Of a DNA stretch of 46,838 bases, positions 14,103 through 46,838 are shown in pieces; within the stretch, counting starts at the first letter, position 1; each line of letters opens with the position of its first letter. The stretch is taken from contig JAPUEH010000016.1 in assembly GCA_027492635.1 (NCBI GenBank), positions 10,965-57,802 on the forward strand. Reading direction: 5' to 3'. This DNA comes from Candidatus Saccharimonadota bacterium. Its GTDB lineage: Bacteria > Patescibacteriota > Saccharimonadia > Saccharimonadales > Saccharimonadaceae. The notes under the pieces were generated by a model. That model did no database searches and was not told the origin of the DNA. It saw only the letters and a list, made by a program, of their open reading frames with translations. A program made the position numbers and the translations under genes.

Positions 14103-14978
14103 ATGGCAACTAAAAAAGCCGCTTCCGCGAAAAAGTCAGCAACGACTCCAGCGAAGCAAACCAAAACTAAAGTAACGACTGTCAAAGCGGTTGCTGCCGA
14201 TGCTACACCTAAAGCACCGTCTCGCAAGGCCGCACCCGGTCTATTTCAGGGACGCTCAGTATTGCTTGGAGCATTTATCGCTGAGTTTATCGGCACATTT
14301 GTTCTTGCTGCAGTCGCAGTACTCAGCCAAGGCCAGCCACTGTCAGTAGGATTTGCGCTTGTTGCAATCGTTCTGACAATCGGTGCGCTTTCCGGCTCAC
14401 ACGTCAACCCGCTCATCACTGTCGGTGCATGGGCAACACGCAAAATCAGCGGAAAACGCGCACTTGGCTATATCGTAGCTCAAGTCCTTGGTGCCCTGCT
14501 TGCATTTGTTGTCGCATCTGCCTACACCAGCGCAGCGCCGCAGCCAGATCAGCAGTCTGCAATGTTCGGTCAACAAGCCGTCAGCATCTTTAAGGCATCA
14601 CCAATCCCAGATGGCAAAGAATTCTATGTATTCTTCGCTGAAATGCTTGGTGCGGTCATCTTCGGTCTTGCGGTATCAAGTGCAATTCGCGAAAAACGTA
14701 ATCGTGCCGCACAAGCATTTACCGTTGGCTTTGGACTGCTTACAGCGCTCATGATTTCTGGCGTACTGGCAAGCTACATCGGTGGCAGCGCAGTGCTTAA
14801 CCCAGCAATCGCATTTACTGTCAGTGCTGTTTCACTCACGAGTCAGCTTGAGCTTTGGGCAGTACTTAGCTACATCGTCTCGCCAATCATCGGCGGTACT
14901 ATTGGATTCTTCCTCTATGACGTACTCCGTGGCGAAAGCGATGGTGGTGACGACAAGCTGGTTAAAGACGAGCTCTAG
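14103..14978 (+). CDS. Aquaporin-like MIP channel with atypical filter and basic tail
   Basis: This 291-residue protein has a 47-residue Lys/Ala-rich cytoplasmic N-terminus resembling histone-like tails, followed by six membrane helices. The two half-helix loops read SGSHVNPLIT (Asn102-Pro103-Leu104) and GSAVLNPAIAF (Asn233-Pro234-Ala235). The first NPA is therefore NPL, and the arginine that normally follows the second NPA is replaced by Ile, so selectivity may differ from water channels. It would pass water or small neutral solutes across the membrane. It is a single-gene unit with its own promoter and a strong terminator at 14993-15026. Confidence 0.9.
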   Translation: MATKKAASAKKSATTPAKQTKTKVTTVKAVAADATPKAPSRKAAPGLFQGRSVLLGAFIAEFIGTFVLAAVAVLSQGQPLSVGFALVAIVLTIGALSGSHVNPLITVGAWATRKISGKRALGYIVAQVLGALLAFVVASAYTSAAPQPDQQSAMFGQQAVSIFKASPIPDGKEFYVFFAEMLGAVIFGLAVSSAIREKRNRAAQAFTVGFGLLTALMISGVLASYIGGSAVLNPAIAFTVSAVSLTSQLELWAVLSYIVSPIIGGTIGFFLYDVLRGESDGGDDKLVKDEL

Positions 14979-14992
14979 TCATACTATAAATC

Positions 14993-15026
14993 AAAAACTG
15001 CGCCTATTTCACTAGGCGCAGTTTTT
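14993..15026. terminator. Intrinsic terminator after the aquaporin-like gene
   Basis: A 14-bp perfect stem (14993-15006 with 15013-15026) with a 6-base loop ends in five T residues. The A-run on the other side lets it also serve rmuC, which ends at 15038 on the minus strand. Confidence 0.95.
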
Positions 15027-15037
15027 ATATGCACCTA

Positions 15038-16111
15038 CTACTCATCTCGCTGAGGCTTGTCTACAAGCAACGGCTCCACCCCGGGACTTGTTTCTGCGAT
15101 CTTTACAATATCCTTGTCAATTTTTTTCAACTCTTTGTGTGCATTATTAAAATGATTAACCGTTGTACCCAAACTACCACCAAGCTTTTGCATGAGTTGC
15201 TCATACACCGAAATATGTCGACTCAATTGCCCTACGCGAGCCTGGATATCCTTTGCTTGTTTTTCAATCTGCAAACTCCGAAGACCCTGTAGTACTGTCT
15301 GGAGATACGCCATAAAACTTGTAGGACTCACAATAATTACCCTGCGATCACGAAACGCATACTCTACCAAATCACGCGCGCTCGCACCTGTTCCCACATC
15401 GCCAATCAATAAATCATAGTACAACGACTCACTTGGAATAAACATAAACGCAAAGTCCATCGTCTGCTCGGCGGGTCGAATATATTTACTCGTTTCGTCG
15501 ATTCTCAATTTCAAATCATTCCGCACTTTTACAAGCAGCAACTCACGCTCTTGTTTACTTTTACTCGCTACCATACGGTTATAATTTTCCAAACTAAACT
15601 TACTATCAACAGATAATAGCATCTCCCCCTCAAGGCGCACGACCGCATCCACAATCTCGCCATCTTTGAATTTGTGCTGCATCTCAAATTGCCCTGGAGG
15701 TAATACATTTTCGAGCACACTTTGCAAATAATACTCACCAAACACACCACGTTGCTTTGGATTCGAGAGCACATTTTGTAGTGTTTTTAGTTCGTCGGCA
15801 ACATCGACCACCCGCCTATTCGTCTCATCAAGTTTTGCGAGCCGCGTACTTACATCACTTACAAGTCTACTACTTTCACTCAGCTGACGTTGCATTGATT
15901 GCTGCATACGCAACGCGCTATTGTCGAGCTTATTACCTACATGCTGCTGTAGATTGCCGAGAGAGCGGTTCAGCTCTACGATATCGGCTTTTAACATTCC
16001 CGCTGCATCACGCTGCTCTAGTTTTTGAATTTTCTGCAGTAACACAAAGATTGTCAACGCAAATCCGCCCATCATCACTACCGCCAATATAACCATAATC
16101 ACTATATCCAT
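15038..16111 (-). CDS. rmuC: RmuC family DNA recombination protein
   Basis: The 357-residue protein has an N-terminal membrane helix (about 3-25), a long coiled coil (about 30-115) and the RmuC nuclease-like domain, seen as LQNVLSNPKQRGVFGEYYLQ (family pattern L-N-K-x-RG-x-GE), EIVDAVVRL and SVDSKFSLENY. RmuC relatives have the PD-(D/E)XK nuclease fold and limit inversions or recombination at repeats in E. coli; the exact reaction is unknown. It ends at the aquaporin terminator. There is no close upstream partner, and the next gene lies 80 bases away. Confidence 0.92.
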   Translation of the reverse strand: MDIVIMVILAVVMMGGFALTIFVLLQKIQKLEQRDAAGMLKADIVELNRSLGNLQQHVGNKLDNSALRMQQSMQRQLSESSRLVSDVSTRLAKLDETNRRVVDVADELKTLQNVLSNPKQRGVFGEYYLQSVLENVLPPGQFEMQHKFKDGEIVDAVVRLEGEMLLSVDSKFSLENYNRMVASKSKQERELLLVKVRNDLKLRIDETSKYIRPAEQTMDFAFMFIPSESLYYDLLIGDVGTGASARDLVEYAFRDRRVIIVSPTSFMAYLQTVLQGLRSLQIEKQAKDIQARVGQLSRHISVYEQLMQKLGGSLGTTVNHFNNAHKELKKIDKDIVKIAETSPGVEPLLVDKPQRDE

Positions 16112-18853: not shown

Positions 18854-18889
18854 AAGATAAAACGAGACCAAAAGGTCTCGTTTTATCTT
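18854..18889 (-). terminator. Strong terminator after tRNA-Gln
   Basis: A perfect 16-bp stem (18854-18869 with 18874-18889) and a 4-base loop start directly after the tRNA-Gln CCA end on the minus strand. The stem itself ends in an AT-rich run and could act in both directions. Confidence 0.85.
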
Positions 18890-18891
18890 GG

Positions 18892-18963
18892 CTGGGATGG
18901 AGGGATTCGAACCCCCGAATGCTGGAACCAGAACCCAGTGCCTTACCACTTGGCGACATCCCA
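18892..18963 (-). tRNA. tRNA-Gln (anticodon CTG)
   Basis: A complete cloverleaf: acceptor TGGGATG/CATCCCA, D-arm GCC/GGC, anticodon stem CTGGG/TCCAG with loop TTCTGGT (anticodon CTG, reads CAG), T-arm with TTCGAATC, discriminator G. CCA is encoded next (18891-18889 read on the minus strand). It lies 133 bases downstream of a tRNA-Gln-like partial copy that sits behind the only visible promoter. Confidence 0.95.
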
Positions 18964-19014
18964 ATAAATCATGTAGGTGCAATTATGATATCGACAAATA
19001 ACGACAGGTTCTGA

Positions 19015-19096
19015 TTCCAGCAGCTGGAACTCATTCTGACGTTCTCGCGTCCACAGACGCTCAGACAGCCAGTGCCTTACCACTTGGCGACATCCA
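19015..19096 (-). ncRNA. tRNA-Gln-like element with hairpin in the anticodon loop
   Basis: On the minus strand, from 19096 to 19069, this repeats the 5' part of tRNA-Gln (acceptor strand with one base missing, complete D-arm, CTGG of the anticodon stem) and also about 7 bases upstream of it. The anticodon loop is replaced by 38 bases (19031-19068) that form a nested hairpin: GCGTC (19047-19051) with GACGC (19056-19060) inside TCTGA (19035-19039) with TCAGA (19061-19065). The 3' anticodon strand GTTCCAGC (19030-19023) returns and is followed by a TTCCAG/CTGGAA hairpin (19015-19029) instead of a T-arm. It is not a functional tRNA by itself; see findings. Confidence 0.7.
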
Positions 19097-19117
19097 ATAA
19101 ATTATTGAACCGCTATT

Positions 19118-19123
19118 AATATA
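19118..19123 (-). promoter_or_regulatory. -10 box upstream of the tRNA-Gln-like element
   Basis: TATATT on the minus strand ends 21 bases before the tRNA-like copy. The transcript would pass through the copy and then the true tRNA-Gln. Confidence 0.4.
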
Positions 19124-45447: not shown

Positions 45448-45542
45448 TTACACCTCCTATAGTTTGTATTCTGTGACACTTCTCGCATCTGTACTATTTA
45501 TAGTAGCACAATTAAAGCCTGTTAGGCTGTTACTACACAAAA

Positions 45543-45565
45543 AACCACTCGAATAAGGAGTGGTT
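45543..45565. terminator. Terminator after tRNA-Leu
   Basis: AACCACTC (45543-45550) pairs with GAGTGGTT (45558-45565). On the minus strand it is followed by a run of T residues. It lies 16 bases beyond the tRNA-Leu 3' end. Confidence 0.9.
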
Positions 45566-45581
45566 CTAAGAATCAACTTGG

Positions 45582-45666
45582 TGCGCAGAGCGGGAATCGA
45601 ACCCGCACGCCTTATTCAGGCAAGAGATTTTAAGTCTCTCGTGTCTACCAATTCCACCATCCGCGC
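45582..45666 (-). tRNA. tRNA-Leu (anticodon TAA)
   Basis: An 85-base class II tRNA: acceptor GCGCGGA/TCTGCGC, D-arm with GGTAGAC, anticodon stem AGAGA/TCTCT with loop CTTAAAA (anticodon TAA, reads TTA), a long variable arm, and T-arm with GGTTCGATTCC. The discriminator A and CCA are encoded at 45582 and 45581-45579. Exactly 100 bases upstream is a partial copy of its 5' part with a D-loop hairpin insert. Confidence 0.96.
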
Positions 45667-45766
45667 GTAGATTATTTGCAAAAACTCGCTCTATCAGAAA
45701 TAGTTATCTTCAGGTGGCACGAGCTTGTCTACGATTATTTGCGTTCACGCAGACCACCATCCGCGC
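45667..45766 (-). ncRNA. tRNA-Leu-like element with D-loop hairpin
   Basis: On the minus strand 45766-45754 repeats the first 13 bases of tRNA-Leu (GCGCGGATGGTGG). The AATTG of the D-loop is replaced by a 21-base insert (45753-45733) with the hairpin TGCG/CGCA, and GTAGAC (45732-45727) then resumes. No anticodon or T-arm follows; instead AAGCTCG can pair with CGAGTTT further down. The TATACT box (45781-45776) places the transcript start within a few bases of the element's 5' end. The insert matches that in the second Phe-like element almost exactly. Confidence 0.75.
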
Positions 45767-45775
45767 GTAGTTTCC

Positions 45776-45783
45776 AGTATACT
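45776..45783. promoter_or_regulatory. Palindromic shared -10 box for two divergent genes
   Basis: AGTATACT is its own complement. On the plus strand TATACT (45778-45783) ends 7 bases before the hydrolase ATG (45791), giving a leaderless mRNA. On the minus strand TATACT (45781-45776) ends 9 bases before the tRNA-Leu-like element. The two transcripts cannot be initiated at the same time. Confidence 0.65.
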
Positions 45784-45790
45784 AGAAAAC

Positions 45791-46381
45791 ATGAAACAAG
45801 TGGTAATTATTCATGGCGGAAGCAGCTTCAACTCGCATAAGTCATATCTCGACAATCTCAAATCAATGGAGATACATTATGAACGACTCAAGTACCAGCA
45901 AAAATGGAAACCCTGGATAGCCGAGCAAATGCCAGAAGCCGATGTATTGCTGCCGACATTTCCCAATGGATATAACGCGGTGTATGACGAATGGAGAATC
46001 TACTTTGAAAAATTATTACCATTCTTGGATAATGACGTACGGCTCGTTGGCCACTCACTTGGCGCAATGTTTCTTGCCATATATCTCCACGAAAATCCAC
46101 TACCAGCTCCAGTGCGCCAACTTATTCTTATTTCGGGTGCTTACGATGACGAAACCGCCGAAGAATTAGGCAGCTTCAAGGTATTGTCGGCGCAAAACGT
46201 CGTAAAAAGCGCCCGAGAAGTACACCTGTTTCACAGCAAAGATGACCCTGTAGTGCCGTTTTTCGAACTTGCCAAATTTCAAGCAGACTTGCCGAATGCA
46301 ACCTCGCACATATTCGAGGACAAAGGGCATTTCAACGATGCAACGTTTCCGGAGTTGCTTGCACTGCTCAAACAAAAATAG
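45791..46381 (+). CDS. Alpha/beta hydrolase (RBBP9/YdeN-like)
   Basis: The protein has 196 residues from the ATG at 45791. It shows VVIIHGGSSF at the start, the nucleophile elbow LVGHSLGAMFLAIYL (Ser in GHSLG), the acid loop in HSKDDPVVPF and the catalytic His in EDKGHFND, a complete triad of the serine-hydrolase type seen in RBBP9/YdeN proteins. The substrate is unknown. The frame is open 22 codons upstream, but this covers the tRNA-Leu-like element and the -10 box, so 45791 is preferred. Confidence 0.9.
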   Translation: MKQVVIIHGGSSFNSHKSYLDNLKSMEIHYERLKYQQKWKPWIAEQMPEADVLLPTFPNGYNAVYDEWRIYFEKLLPFLDNDVRLVGHSLGAMFLAIYLHENPLPAPVRQLILISGAYDDETAEELGSFKVLSAQNVVKSAREVHLFHSKDDPVVPFFELAKFQADLPNATSHIFEDKGHFNDATFPELLALLKQK

Positions 46382-46410
46382 CCTCTGGAAATCCAAAGAC
46401 CATTTTTTGG

Positions 46411-46481
46411 AGGCACGTACGGGAGTCGCACCCGTCTACGCGGTTTTGCAGACCGCTGCGTAACTGCTCCGCCAACGCGCC
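46411..46481 (-). tRNA. tRNA-Cys (anticodon GCA)
   Basis: A complete cloverleaf: acceptor GGCGCGT/ACGTGCC with one G-T pair, anticodon stem GCGGT/ACCGC with loop CTGCAAA (anticodon GCA), T-arm with GTGCGACTC, discriminator T (U73, a tRNA-Cys identity base). CCA is encoded at 46410-46408. A TATACT box lies about 15 bases upstream on the minus strand. There is no tRNA-like copy. Confidence 0.95.
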
Positions 46482-46528
46482 AAAGTTACATCTCCTAGTA
46501 TAGCAAAAAACCATTCTTTGCCCACCAC

Positions 46529-46557
46529 TTGTAGTTTTTGTATCTTTTCGGTAGAAT
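46529..46557 (+). promoter_or_regulatory. Promoter of the tRNA-Phe array
   Basis: TTGTAG (46529-46534) and TAGAAT (46552-46557) with a 17-base spacer. The predicted start near 46564 lies just before the first tRNA-like element at 46570. Confidence 0.55.
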
Positions 46558-46569
46558 ATACAGGAGCAT

Positions 46570-46655
46570 GTCTCTTTAGCTCATCGCCTGCGAAGCAGCG
46601 TCAGAAGAAATTGTAGAGCAGAGGCCAGGCCGAATCTCATTGACGGCATAAAATA
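46570..46655 (+). ncRNA. tRNA-Phe-like element 1 with D-loop hairpin
   Basis: CTCTTTAGCTC (46572-46582) matches the tRNA-Phe acceptor and D-stem. The D-loop is enlarged to 33 bases (46583-46615) with the hairpin CTGC/GCAG (46588-46598, GAA loop); GAGCAGAGGCC then resumes the tRNA sequence. The anticodon loop is missing and is replaced by GCCG...CGGC (about 46630-46648), followed by CATAAAA. It is the first of three units at 109 and 106 base intervals. Confidence 0.7.
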
Positions 46656-46678
46656 ACACATGAGCGCAACTATGTTGT

Positions 46679-46757
46679 GGCTCTTTAGCTCCTGCGCTGC
46701 GTGAAACGCAAATATTCGTAGAGCAGAAGCCAAGGCCGTCCCATGTGCGGCATAAAA
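46679..46757 (+). ncRNA. tRNA-Phe-like element 2 with D-loop hairpin
   Basis: GGCTCTTTAGCTC (46679-46691) is identical to tRNA-Phe. The D-loop is enlarged to 29 bases (46692-46720) with the perfect hairpin TGCGT/ACGCA (46698-46710, GAA loop), and GTAGAGCAGA follows. A GCCG/CGGC stem replaces the anticodon arm, as in element 1, although the loop sequences differ. The insert is almost the same as that in the tRNA-Leu-like element on the other strand. Confidence 0.75.
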
Positions 46758-46784
46758 CAAGTCATGAATCCATACATTTCGTGT

Positions 46785-46838
46785 GGCTCTTTAGCTCAGT
46801 TGGTAGAGCAGAGGCCTGAAGAGCCTTGTGTCCCCAGT
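46785..46838 (+). tRNA. tRNA-Phe (anticodon GAA), 3' end outside window
   Basis: The 5' acceptor GGCTCTT, D-arm GCTC/GAGC with AGTTGGTA loop, anticodon stem GAGGC/GCCTT with loop CTGAAGA (anticodon GAA) and the start of the T-arm CCCAGT are visible. The window ends before the T-loop. Two tRNA-like elements precede it in tandem. Confidence 0.93.

Follow-up and report, generated by a model that had tools for sequence, protein, structure and literature searches.

Many tRNA genes of Saccharibacteria are preceded by leaders that carry a copy of the tRNA's own 5' part, split by an inserted module. We examined this arrangement in a 46,838-nt stretch of Saccharibacterial DNA (the window), in the genome to which it belongs and in other genomes, mostly MAGs. 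The plan was seen before Gln, Met, Lys, Ile, His, Leu, Phe and Thr tRNAs in many Saccharibacteria genomes with a constant order of promoter, copy, module, antisense stretch and tRNA, so that the tRNA-like elements first noticed in the window do form a family, as the first-pass annotation had claimed. Read by sequence, each leader comprises a tRNA 5' copy including the acceptor 5' strand (1) and a module in its D or anticodon loop (M), followed in most leaders by an antisense stretch (2) and then by the 5' (1') and 3' (3) halves of the tRNA itself. Based on sequence comparison and modelled folds, we consider it fairly likely that these leaders are cis-acting structural switches of the tRNA genes that they precede. 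The wider proposal, that they represent a new form of gene control in which riboswitch-like leaders regulate tRNA folding and maturation through a decoy half-tRNA, interchangeable sensor modules and an antisense strand, with one signal tuning several tRNAs, seems to us to have slightly better than an even chance of being correct.

Saccharibacteria are ultra-small parasites that depend on a host and have very few regulators. In the usual view, the amount of tRNA in a bacterium is governed by transcription initiation, by processing and by decay; to our knowledge, the riboswitches described so far act on mRNAs. If true, the proposal would mean that these bacteria adjust their translation capacity directly and gene by gene, and it would bring new aptamer classes and a testable case of regulated tRNA folding.

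Leaders in the window

The window holds leaders of tRNA-Leu, tRNA-Phe and tRNA-Gln genes, composed of the following parts.

45579-45666, minus: tRNA-Leu(UAA) gene (ARAGORN; Rfam tRNA, 59.3 bits)
45776-45781, minus: Leu leader, -10-like box TATACT, 5' of the copy (sequence)
45754-45766, minus: Leu leader, copy of tRNA-Leu nt 1-13 (GCGCGGATGGTGG; identity with the tRNA 5' end)
45728-45753, minus: Leu leader, LF module in the D loop, P1 UCUGC:GUAGA flanking GUGAACGCAAAUAAUC (R2 model match, 47.5 bits)
45713-45726, minus: Leu leader, antisense AAGCTCGTGCCACC, complement of GGUGG and CACGAG of the real tRNA (sequence)
46552-46557, plus: Phe element 1, -10-like box TAGAAT upstream (sequence)
46570-46626, plus: Phe element 1, whole (sequence reading)
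46570-46582 and 46583-46612, plus: Phe element 1, tRNA-Phe 5' copy and unclassified D-loop insert
46613-46626, plus: Phe element 1, resumed copy, reaching the anticodon stem
46679-46731, plus: Phe element 2, whole (R2 model match, 38.7 bits)
46679-46691 and 46692-46717, plus: Phe element 2, tRNA-Phe 5' copy and LF insert
46718-46731, plus: Phe element 2, resumed copy, reaching the anticodon stem
46732-46737, plus: Phe element 2, short antisense AAGGCC against the anticodon-stem 5' strand (sequence; weak alone)
46785-46838, plus: tRNA-Phe(GAA), first 54 nt (Rfam tRNA, 3' truncated)
18889-18963, minus: tRNA-Gln(CUG) gene (ARAGORN and Rfam)
19118-19123, minus: Gln leader, -10-like box TATATT upstream (sequence)
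19069-19097, minus: Gln leader, tRNA-Gln 5' copy up to the anticodon stem (sense score 56, p = 0.000)
19044-19068, minus: Gln leader, module A (CTGTCTGAGCGTCTGTGGACGCGAG) in the anticodon loop (R1 model, 75.4 bits, seed member; P2 covariation)
19007-19020, minus: Gln leader, antisense CTGGAATCAGAACC, complementing the downstream tRNA-Gln anticodon arm with one G-U (duplex energies)

Reading of the upstream DNA, with the tRNAs called by ARAGORN or Rfam, confirmed the partial 5' copies and inserts that had been reported before tRNA-Leu and, as two elements, before tRNA-Phe. The tRNA-Phe gene is genuine; the contig stops at its base 54 (46838 is contig base 57802). Rfam recognises the truncated gene and ARAGORN misses it. 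The reported Gln copy with its insert in the anticodon loop was likewise located, at 19097-19044 on the minus strand. As had been noticed, the Leu insert (minus) and the Phe element 2 insert (plus) are nearly identical, sharing a motif of 24-25 nt, TGCGTGAA(A)CGCAAATA(A/T)TCGTAGA, with exactly two occurrences across the 1.01-Mb genome. The idea of one common insert holds for these two only, Phe element 1 and Gln carrying different ones. What had been missed is the antisense that follows the insert and precedes the tRNA (Leu 45726-45713; Gln 19020-19007). The same genome has two further leaders, one on contig 22 preceding Gln(UUG) and one on contig 7 preceding elongator Met.

Several contigs of the assembly (C16, at window position 46838, and C8, C18, C22, C24 and C6) end inside or a few bases from a tRNA gene, which suggests strain variation or repeats at these genes. 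In the same genome, tRNA-Glu, -Pro and -Arg (L019, L020, L026) lie behind long GC-rich hairpin leaders with no clear tRNA copy. Contig 23 (14813-15167, L024) has two tRNA-like genes whose anticodon loops are unusual; they look foreign and possibly derive from phage or contamination.

Sense copies and their distribution

Some 40 tRNA genes of the genome were locally aligned to their own upstream DNA and compared with 200 shuffles. None of the 200 shuffles scored as high (p = 0.000) for Leu(UAA), Phe, Gln(CUG), Gln(UUG) and elongator Met, and most of the remaining tRNA genes showed no upstream self-copy, barring matches into neighbouring tRNA genes. Of the upstream regions of 240 distinct tRNA genes, 44 scored at or above the sense-copy threshold; among 12,000 shuffles 8 did so, as did 8 of 2,400 alignments to the tRNA of another isotype.

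Searches across Saccharibacteria that started from the Gln and Met leaders returned leaders before tRNA-Gln, Met, His and Lys across many genera. The copied acceptor strand was that of the leader's own tRNA in 17 of 29 Gln leaders, the corresponding figure for non-own acceptors being 3 of 682. The distribution is patchy, with individual leaders missing from close relatives, and prevalence figures are those of a biased sample. Whether relatives would lack the copies, or hold them only as randomly decaying duplicates, had been raised by the first-pass annotation, and the outcome was mixed but on balance favourable: the Phe leader is missing from same-genus relatives, yet many other genera have leaders, in which modules are conserved, stems show compensatory changes and the antisense is matched to the local tRNA.

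Antisense stretches

Most leaders have, 3' of the module, a stretch that is complementary both to the last part of the copy and to the tRNA proper. Its target is the anticodon arm in Gln leaders and the D arm in Met, His and Lys leaders, those of Met carrying a perfect 15-nt D-arm antisense in several genera. In Leu and Thr leaders it is directed at the 3' strand of the D stem plus the 5' strand of the anticodon stem, and the Phe and Ile leaders have short antisense only. Overall, an antisense score of at least 20 was obtained for 29 of 44 leaders versus 5 of 196 other tRNAs.

The antisense is also fitted to the particular tRNA that follows. Duplexes of the Gln antisense reached -20.4 kcal/mol with the own arm versus -17.3 with other Gln arms (p = 4e-5), and the antisense tracks deviating arms too (GGUGCC, GGUACUG); for the Gln leader of the window the values were -30.8 kcal/mol with its own arm and a mean of -20.7 with other Gln arms. 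Leu antisense in a 17-gene set gave -13.9 with the own isoacceptor versus -11.3 with others (p = 5e-4), the Leu leader of the window being a weak case (-9.6 with its own tRNA versus -10.5 with other Leu tRNAs).

Such pairing could also serve a T-box-like feedback in trans, in which mature or uncharged tRNA would pair with the leader antisense and limit its own synthesis, the copy acting as a competitor. The Gln antisense is consistent with this, since it extends across the entire anticodon loop and changes in step with the isoacceptor, wobble-compatible substitutions included. In Met, His and Lys leaders, however, pairing with the D arm would require the tertiary core of the mature tRNA to be opened, and feedback of this type leaves modules A and LF unexplained; moreover, no Rfam T-box match and no general terminator at the leader were found. 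We regard it as unlikely.

Inserted modules

Module LF, the Leu/Phe insert, has the consensus UCUGC-GUGAA(A)YGCAAAUNAU-nGUAGA and takes the place of the D-loop AGUUG/AAUUG. The covariance model R2 gave 23 matches in 14 of 295 genomes, every one of them upstream of and co-directional with a tRNA, within about 190 nt. These tRNAs are Leu (four isoacceptors: UAA, CAG, GAG and UAG), Phe or Thr, and the distance from GUGAA to the tRNA is nearly constant, at about 80-90 nt, in most LF leaders. Tandem Phe leaders were seen in three genera (represented by G073, G102 and the window's genome). In viral contigs, 22 matches to the LF pattern were found, none of them near tRNAs and all with unrelated flanks.

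Module A, the Gln insert, has the consensus CUGUYYGAG-(4-5 bp stem)-CGAGURAAU. Among 295 genomes of the class, its model R1, which like R2 was built from its own best members, gave 15 matches above 35 bits, all 15 upstream of tRNA-Gln; seven of these are seed sequences or their loci. The strong matches span two families of the order, and weaker ones are mostly tRNA-Gln genes themselves. Module A was also found in the D loop of tRNA-Lys, tRNA-Met and tRNA-Ile copies. A scan for the exact core in 257 Gb of GTDB species-representative genomes yielded eight matches. Six are Saccharibacterial, and all of these precede a Gln or Ile tRNA; the remaining two, from other bacteria, are not near a tRNA. 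The exact matches include Candidatus Saccharibacteria UBA2951, UBA2952 and other Saccharibacteria MAGs, with leaders and tRNAs identical in sequence to ones from the window's own family. In 240 genomes from across the phylum, few of which are near known carriers, R1 and R2 at strict cut-offs gave no match beyond the window's family.

Compensatory change in the insert stem, which had been suggested as a check, is present in module A: among 19 modules from four tRNA isotypes the stem has 12 double-changed cells, and none of 500 shuffles matched its covariation score. In a hand alignment, 75 of 76 stem cells were paired, and the unpaired bases flanking the stem are nearly constant. Such patterns mark module A as a structured internal loop, which probably binds a ligand or a protein. 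A hammerhead-like identity (CUGUYYGA / GAGURAA) was considered and rejected, the CUGANGA/GAAA core being missing.

A selfish or neutral origin of the leaders was also weighed, namely tandem duplication of tRNA 5' parts with insertion of a small mobile hairpin, similarity being kept by gene conversion. The patchy distribution, the near-identical tandem copies within one genome in G073 and in G102, and the sharing of modules by unrelated tRNAs all fit such an origin, which we nevertheless hold to be very unlikely because of the compensatory changes in the module A stem and the tRNA-matched antisense. It is further opposed by the promoter preceding the copy and by the mobile-element test, in which no LF match (295 genomes) and no Saccharibacterial module A match lay away from tRNAs. 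Viral spread was rejected as well, module A being absent from viral contigs and the LF-pattern viral matches having unrelated flanks. The related suggestion of a tiny hairpin that merely targets tRNA loops is disfavoured since both tested modules were found only before tRNAs, always with a sense copy.

Transcription and predicted folds

Boxes resembling -10 elements precede the copies, in agreement with the earlier claim that these sit between promoter and tRNA. Such a box was found before the copy in 59% of cases and before the real tRNA in 20%, control tRNAs giving 78% and background 8%. Since the boxes mostly precede the copy, leader and tRNA are probably made as one transcript, and the leader would thus probably belong to the primary transcript.

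Minimum free energy (MFE) folds of leader plus tRNA, predicted without tertiary structure or modifications, were strand-swapped in most precursors, with the 3' strand of the tRNA paired to the leader acceptor copy and its 5' part to the antisense. The mean gain from joint folding was -7.7 kcal/mol for 50 leaders versus -2.8 for 154 control tRNAs, and -2.6 kcal/mol when leaders were joined to non-cognate tRNAs. Under a loose criterion, 'swapped' pairing was also seen in 37 of the 154 controls, and a plain upstream duplicate would likewise permit some strand swap. The MFE fold of the window's Leu leader had no swap. For the tRNA-Phe of the window, whose own 3' part is missing, the 3' part of the gene from G001, of the same genus, was used in folding.

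These folds bear on the possibility that the leader, or the strand-swapped full-length RNA, is a stable tRNA-like decoy or sponge acting in trans on RNase P, a modifying enzyme, a synthetase or a tRNA-cutting toxin. The copies do retain acceptor and D-arm identity, and in many MFE folds the leader acceptor strand closes onto the CCA-bearing 3' strand. Modules, however, always lie in cis with a tRNA of the copy's type, to which the antisense is fitted, and an RNA acting in trans would need neither cis placement nor matched antisense; a decoy in trans is thus distinctly unlikely in our judgement.

A scan of 45500-46838 for terminators returned none in the leaders. Intrinsic attenuation was rejected as a general mechanism, an obvious U-run being present in the Leu leader only. 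Given the terminator-like CGAGUUUUU in that leader, attenuation could act in some leaders. Positions 45727-45682 (minus) of the Leu leader, AAGCUCG...CGAGUUUUUG, form a long-looped terminator-like hairpin that includes the antisense stretch.

Proposed switch

Returning to the cis-acting switch, we propose that two folds compete for antisense strand 2, whose partner would be the decoy copy in one and the real tRNA in the other. The productive fold would consist of a 1:2 helix, which encloses or adjoins the module, and of 1' paired to 3 as in a normal tRNA, so that RNase P could release the tRNA. In the blocking fold, 2 would invade the real 5' half while the acceptor strand of the copy takes the 3' acceptor strand of the tRNA, giving a strand-swapped pseudo-tRNA lacking a usable anticodon. 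For several Gln, Met, Lys and His leaders the computed ground state is the blocking fold, since the antisense is complementary to a longer part of the real tRNA than of the copy. The module, once bound to a small molecule or protein, would tip the balance. We infer the use of two folds, the tipping of the balance by the module and the direction of the response.

Sensing of the cognate amino acid is unlikely, with module A serving Gln, Lys, Met and Ile, and LF serving Leu, Phe and Thr. Because each module serves several amino acids, the signal is probably a general one, such as growth or nutrient state. Four roles had been suggested for the elements by the first-pass annotation, among which a leader that senses fits best.

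Comparison with known systems

Rfam cmscan (gathering threshold, and E <= 5) returned only tRNA and chance matches, with no match to the T-box covariance model, and full-text searches of freely readable journal articles found no description of tRNA-gene leaders with such a plan. The claim that this RNA class had no prior description thus stands for Rfam families and the articles searched.

The T-box riboswitch (RF00230) is likewise a cis leader RNA that base-pairs with tRNA, including the anticodon. Complementarity to the anticodon is found in Gln leaders and is absent in Met, His and Lys leaders, which address the D arm. T-boxes precede aminoacylation or amino-acid genes, read the tRNA in trans and have a conserved T-box bulge, whereas the Saccharibacteria leader precedes a tRNA gene and holds a sense copy and a long antisense. 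A terminator/antiterminator or ribosome-binding-site switch before a protein gene is not seen, the downstream gene being a tRNA. Because both the model match and the protein-gene context are lacking, the leaders were not filed as T-box.

Metabolite riboswitches with 1:2 / 2:3 strand exchange resemble the leaders in having a conserved module in a 5' leader, beside competing helices that for the tRNA leaders are predicted from computed folds, in tandem arrangements and in the use of one module before several genes. A structured module with compensatory changes in a 5' leader, a general trait of riboswitches, is found here in module A. The leaders differ in that the product is a tRNA rather than an mRNA, strand 3 is the tRNA itself, no Rfam aptamer is matched and the ligand is putative.

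Operators such as the E. coli thrS leader mimic tRNA to bind the synthetase on the mRNA. The leaders share with these a tRNA-mimicking element for cis regulation, but here the mimic lies 5' of a tRNA gene and is split by a module. Scars of integrative elements and attachment-site tRNA fragments also place a partial tRNA copy next to a tRNA; in contrast to these, the leaders hold a 5' (not 3') copy within about 100-200 nt, with a conserved module and antisense and no intervening integrase or element.

Further insert classes

Other inserts were observed in tRNA-Gln leaders. Class B inserts (L080, L049, L042, L057, L061, L081, L134) are long hairpin arrays that start GUGAGAACUGCC..GGCAGUUCGCAAGGCCGGAAGCC and lodge in the D or T loop of the copy, that of L080 being a chain of at least seven hairpins. 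The class C insert (L040, L052, L058, L156), GGCCGY-stem-(G)CAAGA, lies in the anticodon loop of the tRNA-Gln copy and is followed by antisense to the Gln anticodon arm. Further inserts were seen in Met and His leaders. In some genera, Met leaders (L095, L101, L110, L111) have an extra conserved structured stretch 5' of the copy, AGUGCCAGCUUU-hairpin-AAGUGAGAACUC..GAACGCCGACGC, which may pair with the start of the copy.
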